A stretch of DNA of 36,467 nt from a virus. Of this stretch, positions 12,320 to 20,604 are shown in pieces (the first letter of the stretch is position 1; each line of letters begins with the position of its first letter). Position numbers and translations under genes: made by a program. The stretch lies in the IMG/VR virus record IMGVR_UViG_3300017752_000060, positions 1-36,467 of that record. The stretch is one strand, 5' to 3'. The notes below the pieces were generated by a model. That model saw only the letters and a list, made by a program, of their open reading frames with translations. It ran no database searches and was not told where the DNA came from.

Positions 12320-12907
12320 TTATGTAATTGAGATCTGACGCTGCTTAAGGCGGTTAATAAATCTATTAGAGAATGGGTTACTTTGCGGGGTGCTTTCTTC
12401 TGTAATAAAAGGGACATCATTAAGCATAATTAACGACTTTCCAGACGATAGCCACCTTAGAAGAAACCACTCAATCCTAGCCATCTGGTCTGCTGAAAAA
12501 GGGAGCCTATCCTCTGTAATTAAACCATCAATAGCAAGAACTCCCCTGCCGTCTAAACGATCATCTTGCATAGGAGACCCAGCCTCAATAATAGACCATA
12601 GGGTATCGCAATCTAAAGCGAAGACAGGAACCCTCCTAATAACCAAAGCTCTCACAAACATATAAAAAGCATCACATATTATTGACTCAGTTCCTACTAC
12701 CTCTAAAACCCTGCCCCTCTTGCTCAGACCTTTAGCCCCTCCTGTTCGTAGCCACAGACCAAGCCTAGTCCCTACCTTACCCTGCTCCATAATAGAGAGA
12801 TCAGGGTCTTGGTAACTCATAGGAACACCGGCATAACTCATAGCACGTAAGATATCCTCTGATGGAATCTTATGATGCTCTCCTTCTTCAATGTCAATAT
12901 TACTCAT
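12320..12907 (-). CDS. Degenerate DnaC/IstB-like helicase-loader candidate lacking a P-loop
   Basis: 195 residues from ATG 12907, overlapping the initiator stop by 8 nt. It has the look of a DnaC-type AAA+ fold: VLEVVGTESI (67-76) where Walker A should be, VLAIDGL (123-129) where Walker B should be, and LIMLND (159-164) matching sensor 1. The P-loop Gly-Lys-Ser/Thr is gone, so it should not hydrolyse ATP in the normal way. Its position between a lambda-O-like initiator and a DnaB-type helicase is that of lambda P or a DnaC homologue. The family assignment rests mainly on Walker-B-like sequence and context. Confidence 0.55.
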   Translation of the reverse strand: MSNIDIEEGEHHKIPSEDILRAMSYAGVPMSYQDPDLSIMEQGKVGTRLGLWLRTGGAKGLSKRGRVLEVVGTESIICDAFYMFVRALVIRRVPVFALDCDTLWSIIEAGSPMQDDRLDGRGVLAIDGLITEDRLPFSADQMARIEWFLLRWLSSGKSLIMLNDVPFITEESTPQSNPFSNRFINRLKQRQISIT

Positions 12908-14093
12908 CAATCCAATCATCAAACGTGCCGCCTCCTGACTTTAACTTAGACTTAGGTTTTGCACGCTGTGCAATTCTTCCTTCCTTACGCATTTGATCTC
13001 GCAAGACTTTAATCTTCTCTCTTTCAAGCCTAAGCTCTTTAAGCTTATCGGCATAACCAAACTCCTCAGCCACTATCTGCTTCGCCTTCTCTGGGTCCAT
13101 GCCCTTCTCACGAAGCTCTTCAGCACGCCGCTCAAGCTCATTCATCTTAGCAAGCCTATCCCACCGCTCTTCGTTAGCGTAAGCGACCTCAAAGATCCTT
13201 CTTAGCTTTACACTAACTATCATCTCTGCCACCGGAAAACGAGGAGCATCATTCATCCACCCTAACGATGTAGATCTTATAAGAAGCCAATTCTGAAATA
13301 AGAACTCAAGGTAAGACATAAACTCTCCTTCATCTCTATTCTTAGTCCAAGCCTTTGCGTAACGGACCATAATAGATCTAACACATGACGATAAGGGCGC
13401 GGGAGCCTCTTTAGGAAAATGCTCAATAAACAACCCCTTCCAAAGTATAACGAATGCGCCGTTCGTGGGAACAAACCCAGAATCTCCACGAACCCTAACA
13501 CCTTTCTCTGCCGCAGCTTTACGCTTAGACTTAGATCTCTTACGAACTTCTTCAATCCTAGTCTTGTAACGAGAAGAGGCATCAACTTCCACCTCGGACG
13601 CTTTAGCGTCCACGCTATTACTATTTTGTCTCTCTTCCCTTTTGCTGCTCTTCCTTATGACAGGGCCGGTTTCGTCCCCCTCGATAGATACACTTTCGTC
13701 CCCGTCGATAGATACACTTTCGTCCCCCTCTTCTCGTAATCTTTTAGGCATCTTCATACGATTAAGCTCATATACTTTAGAGCGGTCAGTGCATAACCTA
13801 GAATCCCTACATAGGAGGTAACCTTTATCAACAAGCGAATTAAGTATGTCACCTGCTCTCCTAACATTAGACGCAAAAGGCGAAGCGATGCATTGGCCCT
13901 TATCATCCCATATACCCTCCACGCATTGACGGCGACTAATCCTCTCTTCGCGCTTTCCCCAGCCCAGAGTTCGATCAAATACAAATAGTAGTGCAAGCCT
14001 TTCAAGCGATGTGCAGTCTCGGAACCAGACCCTAAGTATAGTGCGATGAACTTCCCATACGAATTTCCAATCACGGTATTCATTCTTAGCCAT
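12900..14093 (-). CDS. Replication initiator, lambda-O-like winged-helix protein
   Basis: 397 residues. Residues about 25-105 match the N-terminal winged helix of phage replication protein O: RLALLFVFDRTLGWGKREE, then ISRRQC and NSLVDKGYLL. A low-complexity region follows with GDESVSI repeated in tandem (from residue 123, period 8), then a basic linker and a helical C-terminal domain with coiled-coil character. By analogy, the N-terminus binds origin repeats and the C-terminus recruits the loader/helicase. The tandem peptide repeat is encoded by 24-bp direct DNA repeats that may themselves be origin iterons, as in lambda. A 17-bp dyad lies 15 nt before the start. Confidence 0.78.
   Translation of the reverse strand: MAKNEYRDWKFVWEVHRTILRVWFRDCTSLERLALLFVFDRTLGWGKREERISRRQCVEGIWDDKGQCIASPFASNVRRAGDILNSLVDKGYLLCRDSRLCTDRSKVYELNRMKMPKRLREEGDESVSIDGDESVSIEGDETGPVIRKSSKREERQNSNSVDAKASEVEVDASSRYKTRIEEVRKRSKSKRKAAAEKGVRVRGDSGFVPTNGAFVILWKGLFIEHFPKEAPAPLSSCVRSIMVRYAKAWTKNRDEGEFMSYLEFLFQNWLLIRSTSLGWMNDAPRFPVAEMIVSVKLRRIFEVAYANEERWDRLAKMNELERRAEELREKGMDPEKAKQIVAEEFGYADKLKELRLEREKIKVLRDQMRKEGRIAQRAKPKSKLKSGGGTFDDWIDE
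12958..12974. repeat. Dyad-like copy inside the initiator gene
   Basis: On the minus strand it reads ATTGCACAGCGTGCAAA and encodes IAQRAK near the initiator C-terminus. It keeps the 17-nt length and the invariant GTGCAAA arm of the intergenic elements. Being coding, it may be chance or an intragenic operator upstream of the loader and helicase genes. Confidence 0.4.
13670..13730. repeat. 24-bp direct repeats inside the initiator gene, candidate origin iterons
   Basis: Two full 24-bp units (13670-13693 and 13694-13717) and a 13-bp third (13718-13730) repeat head to tail, each starting TTTCGTCCCC on the plus strand; the full units end CGATAGATACAC. They differ at one base. Their place within a lambda-O-like gene, right after the winged-helix region, copies the position of the lambda origin. 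Initiator binding is inferred. Confidence 0.5.
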
Positions 14094-14108
14094 TAATATT
14101 TGACAGGC

Positions 14109-14125
14109 TTTGCACAGTGTGCGAA
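14109..14125. promoter_or_regulatory. 17-bp dyad element, copy 4
   Basis: On the minus strand it reads TTCGCACACTGTGCAAA, 15 nt before the initiator ATG. It is followed by GCCTGTCAAATATTAATG with no SD. Control here would govern the whole replication block. Confidence 0.68.
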
Positions 14126-14167
14126 TATCATGCTATTCAGTTGTATTGCTGTGTGACTCGTGTTCTG

Positions 14168-14206
14168 CCTGCCCACCTTGGATTCACAATCTCCTCGGTG
14201 GGCAGG
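14168..14206. other. 10-bp perfect hairpin before the initiator gene
   Basis: CCTGCCCACC (14168-14177) pairs perfectly with GGTGGGCAGG (14197-14206) across a 19-nt loop. It lies in the 141-nt gap between the 127-residue gene and the initiator. No run of U follows on the transcribed strand, so it is not a standard terminator; it could be a regulatory or processing structure. Confidence 0.6.
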
Positions 14207-14234
14207 TCTGTTTGAACACCTCACACTAAAAGTT

Positions 14235-14618
14235 TTATGAGCGATAACCTAAGGTTTGCATCTTTTGTATAACTTCAACCTCAGCGGCAACCGCATCTTC
14301 GTAATTCTCCCAGAGCGGTATGTTATCGGGTTTATTGTCTGCTCCCGTATAAGCTTTAACCGCAGAAAAAGGTGGGTGCTTGCATAGCTCGCCACGAATT
14401 AATCCCTGAGGGTCCCATACAGTATTATAGGTCCAAACTTCGTTAGACCGTTGCCCCTCCCATCGGATATACCACATCTGTAATTCTTCATCAAACTCTA
14501 CAAGAGTAGCACGCTTAGTTTCTCCTCTTCCAAGCGACCTCAAATTTAAGCCCTTGCTCTTATGGTCTAATCCGAATAGAGAGCCGTCAGGCCCTACCGT
14601 AATAAGTTGTTTCGCCAT
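14235..14618 (-). CDS. Unknown 127-residue protein
   Basis: I do not recognise this family. The first half has several short beta-like segments (QLITVGPDGSLFGL, ATLVEFDE, MWYIRWEGQ), and the last 30 residues are an acidic Ala/Glu-rich helix (YEDAVAAEVEVIQKMQ). It is the last gene of the block after the DUF1257/DUF2997 pair, with a long nested hairpin RNA upstream and a strong hairpin downstream. No SD lies before the ATG, only ACACTACACTAAA. Its product may be part of the accessory module or a separate single-gene insertion. Confidence 0.7.
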   Translation of the reverse strand: MAKQLITVGPDGSLFGLDHKSKGLNLRSLGRGETKRATLVEFDEELQMWYIRWEGQRSNEVWTYNTVWDPQGLIRGELCKHPPFSAVKAYTGADNKPDNIPLWENYEDAVAAEVEVIQKMQTLGYRS

Positions 14619-14649
14619 TTTAGTGTAGTGTGTAAGTAGTGTAAAGGTA

Positions 14650-14711
14650 GCAGGGACGGATTATCACGCCGAGAAGCACGGCACTTATGAAATTGTGATA
14701 ACCGCCCCTGC
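14650..14711 (-). other. Nested hairpin RNA structure, possible regulatory RNA
   Basis: The arms 14650-14667 and 14695-14711 are complementary over about 16 pairs, with one mismatch and one bulge (on the minus strand GCAGGGGCGGTTATCAC faces TGATAATCCGTCCCTGC). Inside sits a second small stem, GCCG/CGGC, with a 7-nt loop (14668-14682). It fills the gap between the DUF2997 gene and the next gene, 32 nt before the latter start. I see no known riboswitch or ribozyme core. It could be a leader structure, processing site or small RNA. Confidence 0.6.
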
Positions 14712-14719
14712 ACTGCTTC

Positions 14720-14929
14720 TTAAATATACATATTCTCTGTGTCAGAGAGTTCGTCAGTGTTAGGCTGATGCATCTCAGGCTTCTCGTGAACAACGTTAGC
14801 TGCTCCACCAGACAAGGCTTCTTCGATAGGCTTAGTAGCCGATACGCACGAATCCCCAATAAAACCCTCGGCCTCCACTACAGGATTACCGATACAATCA
14901 ATCTTAACTATAATTCTTTTGCCGCTCAT
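14720..14929 (-). CDS. DUF2997 family small protein
   Basis: 69 residues, fitting DUF2997 closely: KRIIVKIDCIGNPVVEAEG, then GDSC, then ATKPIEEAL. Family members are small proteins with a conserved Cys, often encoded beside DUF1257 and AAA+ proteins in cyanobacteria and in phages. The molecular role is not known to me. It has one of the few good SDs here (AAAGG, 8 nt before ATG) and follows the DUF1257 gene by 26 nt. The two would be made together with the Ycf46-like ATPase upstream. Confidence 0.72.
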   Translation of the reverse strand: MSGKRIIVKIDCIGNPVVEAEGFIGDSCVSATKPIEEALSGGAANVVHEKPEMHQPNTDELSDTENMYI

Positions 14930-14955
14930 AAAACAGACCTTTCTATCAATTAGTA

Positions 14956-15399
14956 TTAAGCTACTGCCAACTCTAGATGAATCTCTCCGGTCCCTTCGTC
15001 TAAGGATTCTCCAAGAACCTGATAGCCGGAATTTACTGCTGCATTCATCGCTGCGTGCTTAGAATACTGCTGGAGGAACTTGCCAATGTTCTCTGCCTTG
15101 TGATCAGTATTAGCTACCCTATACTTAGCTCCTATCTGCGAGCGAATGTCTCCATCCCAAGCATCAAAGACTGCGGAGTAACTACCGTCATCCTGTTTCT
15201 TAAGACCTACGTCATATCGGCTTTGTCGAAGCTTAATGACATAATCGCAAGCACCAGATTGATTGCGGTAATACATACGAGGAACTACATTCTCTAGGAA
15301 CTCCAAGTCTACCCCAGCATTCTCCAACTCCCGAACGGCTTGCCTTATAGCAGCCTCATCCCTTAGTGGGACACTTTTAATCTCAGTTGTGTGACTCAT
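14956..15399 (-). CDS. DUF1257 (Ycf35-like) protein
   Basis: 147 residues opening MSHTTEIKSVPLRDEAAIRQ, the start typical of DUF1257/Ycf35 proteins (MSHF...T...D...L..A). It continues with YDVGLKKQDDGSYSAVFDAW and QQYSKHAAMNAAVNSGY, both matching the family spacing (yDiGf, dgsY, D-W, Y-a-h). Ycf35 proteins are found in plastids, cyanobacteria and some phages; their activity is unknown to me. The gene has its own TTGCAA promoter at 15436-15467 and no SD. Being next to DUF2997 and near the Ycf46-like ATPase supports the call. Confidence 0.75.
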   Translation of the reverse strand: MSHTTEIKSVPLRDEAAIRQAVRELENAGVDLEFLENVVPRMYYRNQSGACDYVIKLRQSRYDVGLKKQDDGSYSAVFDAWDGDIRSQIGAKYRVANTDHKAENIGKFLQQYSKHAAMNAAVNSGYQVLGESLDEGTGEIHLELAVA

Positions 15400-15435
15400 T
15401 TATTTAACTGTGTTAGTGTTCTGTCTAACTTATTA

Positions 15436-15467
15436 AGCTTAGCGCAGAATAGAATATTTGCAAGCAA
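15436..15467 (-). promoter_or_regulatory. TTGCTTGCAAA-type promoter before the DUF1257 gene
   Basis: The minus strand holds TTGCTTGCAAATATTC. TTGCAA (15463-15458) is followed by 16 nt and TAAGCT (15441-15436). The start would leave a leader of about 30 nt. The -10 is weaker than at 8000, but the upstream half is the same as in the other three copies. Confidence 0.6.
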
Positions 15468-15478
15468 TTTTTAAACAT

Positions 15479-16087
15479 TTAAAGTTCTATTGATCGTCTA
15501 CGTTTACTAACGACTACTTTCTTATCCTCTAAAGTCTTCTCCACAATCAGCGGAGGAGGAGACTCTTCTTGAAGTAATATATCGTCTTTAGTAAGCAACT
15601 TTCGTCTCATTGTAGAGGACGCTAAGGCAAAGAATGCTTTAGGGACTTTACATCCAAGCTTAACAGCGTCTTCAACACTAATTATATCAAACGTGCCTTC
15701 TATAGTAGCGTCTCTAAAAGATGCGTCATAATTATTAGTAAGGTCTATGTGTAGGCGACGGCACGCTGCACTCTTCCTAACCCTAAGGAAAACAGACCCA
15801 GATAACTCCATCTTACCTAAGCCGGGGTTTACTGTAATAAATAACTTTAATACTTCACCTTGCCTAACGTAAAACTTCTGCTCAATAAACCTACCGCTAA
15901 TATCAGGCTTACGTCCTTTTATAGCTGCAAAGTAAGAAGGTTTACCCAGCTTCTTTATTCCAGCCTCAGGACTAGCAGAGTCTATAAATACTTCTCTGCC
16001 ACCGTCAGTAGGGCTATGAAATAAATAACACTTACCAGAAGAAGTTCTTAGATTAACGTTACCCGTTCTTGTTTTTATTACTGGCAT
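15479..16087 (-). CDS. Unknown 202-residue protein ending in the basic tag
   Basis: I do not recognise the family. Most of the protein (about 1-145) looks beta-rich (VNLRTSSGKCYLFHS, FIEQKFYVRQGEVLKLFITV, ATIEGTFDIIS). A Gly-Lys-Pro-Ser-Tyr-Phe segment and a long linker follow, and it ends KRRRSIEL, a copy of the basic tag. It sits between the Ycf46-like ATPase, which also ends in the tag, and the DUF1257 gene. I therefore treat it as a likely member of the same module. A 17-bp dyad ends 10 nt before its ATG, in place of an SD. Confidence 0.72.
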   Translation of the reverse strand: MPVIKTRTGNVNLRTSSGKCYLFHSPTDGGREVFIDSASPEAGIKKLGKPSYFAAIKGRKPDISGRFIEQKFYVRQGEVLKLFITVNPGLGKMELSGSVFLRVRKSAACRRLHIDLTNNYDASFRDATIEGTFDIISVEDAVKLGCKVPKAFFALASSTMRRKLLTKDDILLQEESPPPLIVEKTLEDKKVVVSKRRRSIEL

Positions 16088-16097
16088 AATTATTAGT

Positions 16098-16114
16098 ATT
16101 GCACGGTGTGCAAA
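16098..16114. promoter_or_regulatory. 17-bp dyad element, copy 5
   Basis: On the minus strand it reads TTTGCACACCGTGCAAT. It abuts the stop codon of the AAA+ gene exactly (gene ends at 16115) and lies 10 nt before the next ATG. That leaves no room for a promoter in the gap, so an operator or RNA-level role is more likely. Confidence 0.68.
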
Positions 16115-17761
16115 TTATTTAGTAGCTACGCTGCGCCTACGAGGACGCTTAGCCTTCTCAATAGATTTAGGATTCGCTTCTTCTTCTAGGGTAGATGATG
16201 CAGGCTGAGCATTATGCTCTGCCCACGTTAACATACCGTTAAAATCATCAGCAAACGCCACGCTAATAGGCTTCATCTGCCCTAGCATATCTGCAATAAG
16301 TGCGCCCGACATCTTAACCTTGGTATGAAAGCTATGCTTCTTAGCTTCAGATACAGCGGCTTCCAACTCAGCGGACACGAATCCTTTAGAAGCATCTATA
16401 GCGAAGTTAAGGTCCTTAATGTTCTCGGGATCACACTTACGCTTTTTAAGGTGAATTCGAAGAACGGCTTCACGCTCTTCTCTGTTAGGCGGTAGCACTG
16501 CGAACACTTCGTCCATTCTACCTTTACGCAAAAGTGCGGGATCAAGACCTTCATGCCTGTTAGCTGTAAACATCCAGAATATATCTTCCGTAGCCTCTTG
16601 CATCTCAGTCAATAAGATCTGAAGCACACGTTTAGAAACTCCAGAGTCTCCTGACGAATTATGCGCCCCTCCAAGCCCTTTATCCACCTCATCTACCAGA
16701 ACTACGCAAGGAGCCATAGCCTTAATCTGATTGACTGCCGATCTAGTATTACCTTCTGACTGACCTACGAGCGATCCGAAAACCCTAGATATGTCAAACC
16801 TAATAAGAGGCATACCAAAGATATTAGCCACTGCTTTTCCGAAAAGAGTCTTACCCGTCCCAGGAGGACCGATAGCACTAATTCCCTTAGGCGTATCTAC
16901 CCCCGCAGCCTTAGCTTCTTCGGTAAAGGCATCTTTAGCAATCTCAGCCCATTGCTTAATCCGATCAAGACCTCCAACCTCGCTAATGTCAACGGGTGAC
17001 ATAAGTTCAAGTATATCAGACTGTTTAACCACCTCAGTCTTTTGATTTAAGACTGTTCCGTTATACGAATCAAAAGAGATGTTATGCCAATCACCCTCTT
17101 CTGGCTTATTTTCTACAATAGCCTTAGAGTAAGATACTTCGCATTCCATTTGAGTCATACCCCCAGACCCAGCTACAAGCTGATCATACTCCGAGTCTGT
17201 AAACATCTTAGGGACTTCTTCATTAGGCGGCGTAGAAGACTCAATAACATACTGTAAAATATCCCGCCTCTCATCGGAGTTAGGAAGATCAAAGTCTTGT
17301 ATAGGTATATCGTGAGAAAGCTCTTCTGGTAAGTTCTCTGTCTCAGGATTTACTATAATAAGCCTGACCCTAGGTAGCTCAGACATATCTCTTACATAAT
17401 GACGCAAGCACTCAATAATACCAGGATGCTGCTGCTTATTAAGCCAAGGATGCAGCGCGTGCATAACAAAGATACCTTTATCCTTTGCAGCCCCACCCCC
17501 AACGCCTAAGATCCACTTCATAGCTGAGAATGGATCAAGTATCTCTTCCTTACTTGGTGTGCTGTCTGGATCGTCAGAAGGTAATCTCGTAATCCATCCG
17601 TCTCGGATATTCCACAAGTTAAAGGGAAGGTCCTTAGTAAAAGCGTATTCCTGTAAAGCCTCAATAGCTCGGAAAGGTTCGCGTGTTCTAGTGTAAATAA
17701 CGCCTACTCCGCTACCGCAGAGAACACGTATCTTGCTCTGATATAACTCGTTGTTTTTCAT
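16115..17761 (-). CDS. Ycf46-like AAA+ ATPase
   Basis: 548 residues in the two-part layout of Ycf46. An N-terminal domain (about 10-175) contains VIYTRTREPFRAIEAL, FNLWNIRDGW, GIFVMHALHPWL, IIECLRHYVRDMS and DIPIQDFDLP. The AAA+ module has Walker A GPPGTGKT (298-305), Walker B LVDEVD (355-360), sensor 1 FTANR (398-402) and arginine fingers LLRKGR (410-415). Relatives occur in plastids and cyanobacteria, where Ycf46 has been linked to regulation of photosynthesis, and in phages. The C-terminus KRPRRRSVATK is the basic tag. All catalytic residues are intact, so an active, probably hexameric remodelling ATPase is expected. It has its own promoter. Confidence 0.82.
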   Translation of the reverse strand: MKNNELYQSKIRVLCGSGVGVIYTRTREPFRAIEALQEYAFTKDLPFNLWNIRDGWITRLPSDDPDSTPSKEEILDPFSAMKWILGVGGGAAKDKGIFVMHALHPWLNKQQHPGIIECLRHYVRDMSELPRVRLIIVNPETENLPEELSHDIPIQDFDLPNSDERRDILQYVIESSTPPNEEVPKMFTDSEYDQLVAGSGGMTQMECEVSYSKAIVENKPEEGDWHNISFDSYNGTVLNQKTEVVKQSDILELMSPVDISEVGGLDRIKQWAEIAKDAFTEEAKAAGVDTPKGISAIGPPGTGKTLFGKAVANIFGMPLIRFDISRVFGSLVGQSEGNTRSAVNQIKAMAPCVVLVDEVDKGLGGAHNSSGDSGVSKRVLQILLTEMQEATEDIFWMFTANRHEGLDPALLRKGRMDEVFAVLPPNREEREAVLRIHLKKRKCDPENIKDLNFAIDASKGFVSAELEAAVSEAKKHSFHTKVKMSGALIADMLGQMKPISVAFADDFNGMLTWAEHNAQPASSTLEEEANPKSIEKAKRPRRRSVATK

Positions 17762-17793
17762 ACAATGGTTGGGCCTCTACTATGCCCGTTATT

Positions 17794-17824
17794 AGCTTAG
17801 CACAAATACGAATCTTTGCAAGCT
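17794..17824 (-). promoter_or_regulatory. TTGCTTGCAAA-type promoter before the AAA+ gene
   Basis: The minus strand holds AGCTTGCAAAGATTCG. TTGCAA (17821-17816) is followed by 16 nt and TAAGCT (17799-17794), the same -10 as the DUF1257 promoter. A leader of about 27 nt carries GAGG 12-14 nt before the ATG as a poor SD. Confidence 0.6.
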
Positions 17825-17849
17825 AAAAATACAAAGTTTTTACTGTAAC

Positions 17850-18080
17850 TCAATCACATTCAATTCTTCTAGATCTAACTGCTTTAACTTTAGGTGTCTC
17901 CAGAGGTTCTCCCTCCGTGTTCTGAAAAGAGAAGGTTTCAGCTTGCATATCGTAAAGAACTTCTGCATTAGAATCCTCCGAGAAAAGAGACAGTTGTTTC
18001 TTTGCAGCTACTAGCACTTCACACCCCATATTAATAAAAGTGTCTAATAGTCTATCGCTAAGTATAATAGGTCTAGGCAT
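17850..18080 (-). CDS. Small unknown protein ending in the basic tag, probably leaderless
   Basis: 76 residues from ATG 18080. An ATG at 18095 lies inside the promoter and is rejected. The sequence is MPRPIILSDRLLDTF, then CEVLVAAKKQLSLF, then an acidic and polar region, ending KAVRSRRIECD. The end is almost the same as KALRSRRVSAA in the partial protein at 36047. I do not recognise the family. It is the first gene after the terminator that closes the late region and directly precedes the Ycf46-like ATPase, so it may belong to that module. The promoter leaves essentially no 5' leader. Confidence 0.68.
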   Translation of the reverse strand: MPRPIILSDRLLDTFINMGCEVLVAAKKQLSLFSEDSNAEVLYDMQAETFSFQNTEGEPLETPKVKAVRSRRIECD

Positions 18081-18085
18081 ACTAC

Positions 18086-18116
18086 ACGTTAGCACCTATC
18101 CGAATCTTTGCAAGCA
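18086..18116 (-). promoter_or_regulatory. TTGCTTGCAAA-type promoter, probably giving a leaderless mRNA
   Basis: The minus strand holds TTGCTTGCAAAGATTC. TTGCAA (18113-18108) is followed by 16 nt and TAACGT (18091-18086). The expected start, 6-8 nt further, falls at 18080-18078, on the ATG at 18080. Confidence 0.58.
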
Positions 18117-18137
18117 ATAAATAAAAATGTTTTCTCT

Positions 18138-18165
18138 AAAACTTAAGTTTTCACCTCAGTGAAAA
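18138..18165 (-). terminator. Hairpin terminator-like region ending the lysis block
   Basis: TTTTCAC (18148-18154) and GTGAAAA (18159-18165) form a perfect 7-bp stem with a 4-nt loop. An overlapping 14-bp palindrome, AAAACTTAAGTTTT (18138-18151), can form instead and provides U-rich RNA after the first stem. It lies between the last lysis gene and the promoter of the accessory module, where a terminator would be expected. The stem is weak, so termination may be leaky. Confidence 0.5.
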
Positions 18166-19995: not shown

Positions 19996-20604
19996 TCAAG
20001 TTTCTTTGTAAGATCTCCAGCAGTCAGGGACCCCTAAAAGATCATAATCCTCTTCAAACCTACTGTGAACAATACGAGCACTTTCAGAATCGTATAAACC
20101 AGACAGATCAGAGGGCTTAGTAGTAGAGGCATTAAGCCTACCTAATTCAACAGGAGGTATGCCAACCTTATCGCATATTACACGCCACTTCTCGCTAATA
20201 TCATCAAGCAAGAAAATATCATCAACGGCTATGTTGCCGTCCCAATCTTTCCAGTAAAAACAATGAGCACTTAGCTCTCTAATCCTAAAGAAAGGCAAGT
20301 CTTTTACGTAACTTTTAACCCAAGCTCTAAAATCAGAATCGTAAGGAATTTTATGGGCATTGCCTTCCTCTAAGCCATCTCTCCAGTAAAAGAACAGGCT
20401 TGCCGTTACTTCTAACGGATTTCTTCTAAAAGAGAAGGTGTAATACTCATCAAACTTAGGAACTACCTTAATTAAATTATGCAGCGGCGCATGATCCATA
20501 CCTGGTATCACTAAAACGCCAGCCTCGATAAAGGCTTCCTTGCGAGATGTCCCTCCTGTCTTGGGAACGTGTATATCAGAGAATCTGTGAGAAGCGGAAA
20601 CCAT
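19996..20604 (-). CDS. Sulfotransferase-like protein, copy 2 (intact PAPS loop)
   Basis: 202 residues. HVPKTGGTS (12-20) matches the 5'-phosphosulfate-binding loop of PAPS-dependent sulfotransferases, including the key Lys 15. FSFRRNPLEVTASLFFYW (from about 58) matches the 3'-phosphate-binding motif (R-N-P...S). The C-terminal KVGIPPVELGRLNAS and a final RFEEDYDLLG are typical of the heparan-sulfate 2-O-sulfotransferase-like family in bacteria and viruses. It should move sulfate from PAPS to a sugar or protein. It is a paralogue of the gene directly upstream (4 nt apart) and follows a glycosyltransferase. The substrate is unknown; tail glycans or host surface polysaccharide are possibilities. 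Confidence 0.75.
   Translation of the reverse strand: MVSASHRFSDIHVPKTGGTSRKEAFIEAGVLVIPGMDHAPLHNLIKVVPKFDEYYTFSFRRNPLEVTASLFFYWRDGLEEGNAHKIPYDSDFRAWVKSYVKDLPFFRIRELSAHCFYWKDWDGNIAVDDIFLLDDISEKWRVICDKVGIPPVELGRLNASTTKPSDLSGLYDSESARIVHSRFEEDYDLLGVPDCWRSYKET

Follow-up and report, generated by a model that had tools for sequence, protein, structure and literature searches.

Two described gene neighbourhoods are among those closest to the system considered here, a block that encodes an AAA+ ATPase of the Ycf46 type together with a Ycf35-like (DUF1257) and a DUF2997 protein and is carried by a phage fragment of 36,467 bases (IMG/VR record IMGVR_UViG_3300017752_000060; this whole stretch is called the window below). 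The first is that of Ycf46 itself, known from Cyanobacteria and red-lineage plastids. Ycf46 is Slr0374, encoded in a stress-responsive operon of unknown function (PMC7496141), and its loss in Synechocystis is reported to lower EcaB carbonic anhydrase activity by a mechanism that is not known (Jiang 2015, as cited in PMC7496141). The second is the conserved cyanobacterial cluster DUF2997-ycf35-fed7, in which fed7 encodes a 4Fe-4S ferredoxin (PMC4284462). In plastids of freshwater Nemaliophycidae both ycf35 and ycf46 are missing (PMC5940233), and in the Nothogenia plastid both are pseudogenes (PMC5057469); the two genes have thus been lost together in red-algal plastids. A search of the literature, mainly of open-access papers, found none that treats AAA, DUF1257 and DUF2997 as one system.

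The phage block shares features with each of these and departs from each. Its ATPase is like Ycf46 over the full length, and in all ten cyanobacterial genomes checked the second DUF1257 copy adjoins a full-length Ycf46-type AAA gene; however, the phage ATPase lies within a five-gene module with two further proteins of 202 and 127 residues (P202 and P127), whereas DUF2997 does not adjoin the Ycf46-type gene in the cyanobacterial stretches read. DUF1257 and DUF2997 genes are adjacent in the phage as they are in the fed7 cluster, but in the phage their order is reversed, the ferredoxin is missing and an AAA gene is present. Bacterial loci that combine AAA, DUF1257, DUF2997 and radical-SAM genes, with Hsp70, GrpE or HEAT-repeat genes, hold the same three core families close together; the phage lacks all of these additional genes and has P202 and P127 instead. 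The phage AAA family PHROG 8638 matches nearly the whole ATPase (residues 3-532, 2.2e-130) and is listed as of unknown function only, its partners not being described there. MoxR-vWA ternary conflict systems (PMC7159879) likewise set an AAA+ chaperone among partner genes, some including a radical-SAM gene, but their AAA protein is of another type. The block's proteins gave no profile match to a vWA co-chaperone and CDC48/FtsH-type models are the best match for the ATPase, and identity with a MoxR-vWA system was rejected.

Results

AAA, DUF1257 and DUF2997 genes form a recurrent unit

Seven annotated records with the AAA gene were inspected first, after which profiles for P202, DUF1257, DUF2997 and P127 were run over all fetched loci; the detection profiles for the module families were built from family members, the window's own proteins among them. 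Among viral loci fetched by the AAA protein alone, those with a strong Ycf46-type AAA had DUF1257 or DUF2997 nearby in 34 of 41 cases and both in 25 of 41, against 4 of 63 with either when the AAA match was weaker, although some loci are near-duplicates and the counts (34/41, 4/63) are therefore not independent. The four exceptions look like divergent Ycf46-type members.

The association extends to cellular genomes. In 149 Planctomycetota genomes DUF1257 occurs in 14 and DUF2997 in 25, and all 14 are shared (P 2.7e-13); loci newly fetched from this phylum by DUF1257 had DUF2997 alongside in 13 of 13 and an AAA gene within the 3.3-kb piece in 12 of 13. DUF1257 was found in 30 of 59 cyanobacterial genomes, where the trio is split in two: the main DUF1257 copy stands with DUF2997 in 20 of the 29 loci read, and the second copy stands with the Ycf46-type gene, as described above. 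Only one of 299 Pseudomonadota genomes has DUF1257, that one being the centre genome itself. We conclude that the AAA-DUF1257-DUF2997 trio is a genuine recurrent gene unit in phages and bacteria, its members being associated far beyond chance. The trio occurs in phages, plasmids, Planctomycetota and Cyanobacteria, and the families also in plasmids of Nitrospirota and Bacillota, so that the earlier placement of Ycf46 and Ycf35 mainly in plastids and Cyanobacteria was too narrow.

In bacteria and on plasmids the loci also hold genes for a short radical-SAM protein (Fer4_12), a protein with HEAT repeats, GrpE and Hsp70. Among bacterial loci where the AAA is strong, a radical-SAM gene is present in 7 of 17 and an Hsp70 gene in 5 of 17; neither was seen in any of the 41 strong viral loci. 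In the cellular loci L025, L020, L022, L027 and L033 the AAA gene is accompanied by the short radical-SAM gene and in some by HEAT, GrpE or Hsp70 genes; we found no description of this recurrent bacterial cluster. A DUF3150 gene without P202 occurs in the Ycf46-type AAA loci L109, L121, L127, L186-L188 and L195, usually with DUF2997 and in some with DUF1257, and it follows the trio on a Nitrospirota plasmid (L017 7151-7723). P202 and DUF3150 were found together in none of the strong viral loci and may occupy the same slot.

A five-gene module adjoins the replication genes

In phages the trio belongs to a larger arrangement. The order AAA, P202, DUF1257, DUF2997, P127 is fixed in 22 genomes, the window included, some of which carry an inserted gene, mostly before P127. 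Where a locus extends far enough, homologues of DnaB and of a RepO-like protein in most cases come after the module, genes similar to the RepO-like one being present in 15 related loci; the module usually lies directly 5' of the RepO-like and DnaB genes.

A preliminary description of the window had outlined a block at 14720-18080 containing a Ycf46-like AAA+ protein, DUF1257 and DUF2997 proteins and two proteins that it could not place. Profile searches bear out the trio within that interval, DUF1257 and DUF2997 both scoring above their Pfam cut-offs (Table 1), and the neighbourhood survey over viral, planctomycetal and cyanobacterial loci shows that the three genes are truly associated, as had been supposed. 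The two unplaced proteins fared differently: P202 is a conserved member of the module, whereas the 81-aa open reading frame (ORF) is not conserved. Because this ORF and the next two upstream genes have no detectable relatives in 21 related loci, the conserved module is set at 14235-17761, which takes in the 127-aa gene, and the 81-aa ORF is judged not to be part of it.

The ATPase and its putative small partners

The ATPase appears to consist of an N-terminal half and an active-looking C-terminal AAA domain. Compared with a cyanobacterial protein that adjoins DUF1257, and that we take to be Ycf46-type from its architecture, not from a named Ycf46 record, it shows 30.4% identity over 529 aa (E 1e-76), a match which covers the N-terminal half and not the AAA core alone. 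Its motifs comprise Walker A (GPPGTGKT), Walker B (DE 357-358), sensor Asn401 and, in the arginine-finger region, Arg412 and Arg415. These residues, which the preliminary description had already read as intact, vary hardly or not at all across the 9 sequences aligned and across 103 unique ones. The N-terminal half is possibly a degenerate AAA copy: in hhalign comparisons with the C-terminal half, the diverse alignment A5 gave a probability of 88.9% (E 2.4e-6), and two shallower alignments gave 5-9% only. Alignments with the most distant members of the families left no stretch conserved enough for collection scans.

In profile searches the ATPase is best matched by CDC48/FtsH-type models. In PADLOC it is best matched by the AAA proteins of the IetA family (E 1.4e-24), a similarity confined to the AAA core. 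The IetA score is 75 bits, the curated cut-off being 510; an IetS-like partner was not found in the PADLOC search, and the IetAS defence system was rejected as an identification. Two further loci with related ATPases came to light. The Streptococcus satellite phage Javan368 (L009 4938-6515) encodes an AAA protein of the same general type, 27% identical to residues 22-440 of the window ATPase, and the Treponema succinifaciens plasmid pTRESU01 (L019 3315-7539) carries a Ycf46-type AAA and a 4Fe-4S protein directly before a gene for baseplate assembly protein V.

The putative small partners carry conserved residues of their own. The N-terminus of DUF1257, Met-Ser-His, is nearly universal among unique homologues (Ser2 in 60/60, His3 in 57/61). 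Its AlphaFold2 model has a mean predicted confidence (pLDDT) of 91.7, and a fold search of the Protein Data Bank (PDB) with that model gave no match at E<=0.001. In DUF2997, Gly25 and Cys28 are invariant, the cysteine being present in 66 of 66 unique homologues. P202 had no match in Pfam, PHROG, NCBIfam or PADLOC profile searches. Its AlphaFold2 model is beta-rich (pLDDT 90.2, falling to about 46-65 in the C-terminal tail); it had no PDB fold match at E<=0.001 and resembles two proteins of phages, including one encoded by Pseudomonas phage SM1 (TM 0.84). Many P202 members retain an arginine-rich tail motif with a hydrophobic final residue, a candidate recognition tag.

Control elements are common to other non-structural genes

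The preliminary description had treated the block as like a self-contained accessory system with three promoters of its own, served also by a dyad and a structured RNA and bounded on one side by a terminator-like hairpin. The promoter-like motifs, the dyad and the structured RNA exist, although the motif before the AAA gene, TAGCTTGCAAA, has one mismatch to the other two copies, TTGCTTGCAAA. The promoter-like motif and the dyad are not peculiar to the block. At 99.99-100% identity the window matches a portion of a longer contig from the same phage (74,020 bases, in circular permutation), and in this parent contig (loci L157-L160) the extended promoter-like pattern TTRCTTGCAAA...TGTGCTATACT has 17 copies, whereas 50 first-order Markov sequences had 1.9 on average and 6 at most. 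Of these copies, 16 lie on one strand; the pattern is present in the block and in other non-structural stretches, and segment L157 (18.6 kb), with structural genes among its content, has none. The dyad TTGCACNGTGTGCAA, probably a phage repressor or activator site, has 14 copies with <=2 mismatches in the parent contig. Since both elements are distributed genome-wide, the block has no private promoters and shares its control elements with other non-structural genes. What had been taken for a self-contained system is instead a set of five genes conserved within the non-structural region, and in many phages it is syntenic with the replication genes.

The promoter-like pattern reads CTTGCA-N16/17-CTATAC and resembles CTTGAC-N17-CTATAT, the sigma-70 consensus of Alphaproteobacteria. 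The hosts of the named phage relatives are Rhizobium, Pseudomonas, Aeromonas, Agrobacterium and Rhodobacter. An alphaproteobacterial host for the window's phage is suggested solely by the promoter resemblance and by several of these relatives. Scans with generic models of sigma-70 promoters and of terminators found sites no more often than in shuffled sequence and were not used as evidence.

The dyad copy between the AAA and P202 genes is TTGCACGGTGTGCAA. One-mismatch matches before P202 were present in only two relatives, L018 and L104, and Rhizobium phages have a similar dyad with a 6-base spacer; for these reasons no conserved operator is claimed. A second dyad copy in the window, at about 14111-14127 (parent-contig 65127), falls within a structured leader. 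Rhizobium-phage relatives (L002, L003) show strong folds in the same gaps as the window, with z -4.8 and -5.7 for the DUF2997-P127 gap, the likeness being one of position and fold strength. An Rfam search found no known RNA family in the window. The hairpin at 18148-18165 is weak: its region is unremarkable (z -1.8), and no intrinsic terminator was called there.

Neighbouring genes

Most window genes are on the minus strand. The module is flanked by the replication block, the first gene of which encodes the RepO-like protein, and by lysis and tail genes (Table 1). Beside the tail genes, at 19996-20604 (-), lies a sulfotransferase-like PHROG match (phrog_3347, 1.3e-08).

Table 1. Module genes, control elements and surrounding genes in the window
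Feature	Position	Strand	Remarks
Ycf46-type AAA+ ATPase, 548 aa	16115..17761	-	Pfam AAA 2.4e-30
P202, 202-aa beta-sandwich protein	15479..16087	-	phage-specific module member; flexible basic C-terminal tail
DUF1257 (Ycf35-like) protein, 147 aa	14956..15399	-	PF06868 6.9e-07, 29.9 bits (cut-off 22.2)
DUF2997 protein, 69 aa	14720..14929	-	PF11211 5e-06, 26.7 bits (cut-off 24.1)
P127, 127-aa protein	14235..14618	-	last member of conserved phage module; phrog_38408 2e-10, listed as unknown function
81-aa ORF	17850-18095		one weak sub-threshold Pfam match only
Promoter-like motif TTGCTTGCAAA before 81-aa ORF	18107..18117	-	exact match
Promoter-like motif TAGCTTGCAAA before AAA gene	17815..17825	-	one mismatch to TTGCTTGCAAA
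Promoter-like motif TTGCTTGCAAA before DUF1257 gene	15457..15467	-	exact match
Operator-like dyad TTGCACGGTGTGCAA between AAA and P202 genes	16100..16114	.	one of 14 copies
Structured intergenic RNA between DUF2997 and P127	14625..14730	-	-35.4 kcal/mol, z -4.27
Structured leader between P127 and RepO-like gene	14080..14240	-	-52 kcal/mol, z -4.73; contains second dyad copy
RepO-like protein	12900..14093	-	first gene of adjoining replication block; context, not module member; weak Pfam Phage_rep_O 0.012, below cut-off
UvsX-like recombinase, helicase, primase, DNA polymerase, DnaB and RepO-like genes	1.7-14.1 kb		
Block with AAA, DUF1257 and DUF2997 genes	14.2-18.1 kb		
Endolysin-like gene	18.7-19.6 kb		
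Tail and neck genes	up to 36 kb		

Discussion

The phage block may well be the phage form of a widespread, uncharacterised AAA+ remodelling system that acts on a replication-associated or a host complex, a reading for which and against which we see the scales as about even. Its most likely role would be protein remodelling by an AAA+ ATPase whose expression goes with that of the non-structural genes, DUF1257 and DUF2997 serving as core partners and P202 and P127 as phage-specific ones. The AAA domain would assemble as a ring and, at the expense of ATP, remodel or unfold its target, be this a protein or a complex. Both DUF1257 and DUF2997 would be obligate small partners, either adaptors or regulatory subunits; putative functional sites are the invariant cysteine of DUF2997 and the Met-Ser-His terminus of DUF1257. 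P202 and P127 might be phage-specific adaptors or substrates that direct the machine to a host complex or a replication-associated one while the infection is in its replication phase. That the ATPase works with the small partners, as the preliminary description had put it, may reasonably be supposed. For a replication-linked target, synteny and promoter class are the two lines of evidence; we would give such a target the largest share, with host takeover a serious rival.

Several observations weigh against a remodeller of this kind. Pore-loop 1 of the ATPase is SLVG and lacks the usual aromatic residue, so that threading is not assured. Divergence is correlated among the five module proteins (r 0.62-0.79), which is also expected from simple co-inheritance, and the synteny with replication genes may arise from shared timing only. 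A replication role cannot be general, because the cellular partners include radical-SAM, Hsp70 and GrpE proteins. Ring assembly, the substrate and contact among the five proteins are themselves predictions.

A host-takeover or counter-defence ATPase is the strongest alternative, though we consider it somewhat doubtful. The module would then remodel or disable a host complex, such as RNA polymerase, a nuclease or a defence assembly, and not a phage replication complex. The promoter motif common to the block and other non-structural genes would suit this role, as would the choice of IetA proteins as best PADLOC matches and the near absence of DUF1257 from Pseudomonadota, which makes the module largely foreign to such hosts. 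However, the likeness to IetA is confined to the AAA core, falls far short of the curated cut-off and comes without a partner, and conserved synteny favours replication over a variable counter-defence locus.

A chaperone for virion assembly, comparable to the MoxR-vWA pair of an Acidianus virus that has been linked to assembly of the tail, seems improbable to us. AAA+ chaperone pairs for assembly have been discussed for jumbo phages and that virus (PMC7824862), and the window's module adjoins lysis and tail genes. Nevertheless, the block has no vWA partner, its ATPase is closest to CDC48/FtsH-type models, its promoter motif is absent from the structural segment L157, and the gene order is with replication genes.

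Still less probable is an auxiliary metabolic module through which the phage boosts photosynthetic carbon or Fe-S/redox metabolism of its host, as Ycf46 and Ycf35 may in Cyanobacteria. The carbonic anhydrase effect reported for Slr0374 (Jiang 2015, as cited in PMC7496141) and the clustering of ycf35 with fed7 (PMC4284462) point in this direction; we set the reading low because most hosts of the named relatives are not phototrophic and the strong viral loci lack the radical-SAM partner. That the genes are neighbours merely through the compactness of phage genomes, without joint function, is very improbable, for although genes of one phage region are often co-inherited and the distance correlations among the five are compatible with this, linkage of the trio is also seen in bacteria and plasmids, and ycf35 and ycf46 were lost together in plastids.

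An AAA+ remodelling system that acts on a replication-associated or host complex thus remains our preferred account of the phage block. More tentatively, and with less confidence than we place in that account, Ycf46, DUF1257 and DUF2997 could constitute a general, hitherto undescribed three-part protein-remodelling machine of plastids, Cyanobacteria, other bacteria and phages, which works with radical-SAM and Hsp70 proteins in cells and has been retargeted to DNA replication through P202 and P127 in phages.

The analysis makes a coherent module of a conserved run of phage genes that are now mostly annotated as hypothetical proteins. The roles of Ycf46 and Ycf35 have long been unclear, though both are kept in many algal plastids. 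Recognition of Ycf46, Ycf35 and DUF2997 as one gene unit, of which phages that can be cultured carry a compact form while their likely hosts for the most part lack these families, offers a simple genetic setting in which parts can be removed and the target trapped.

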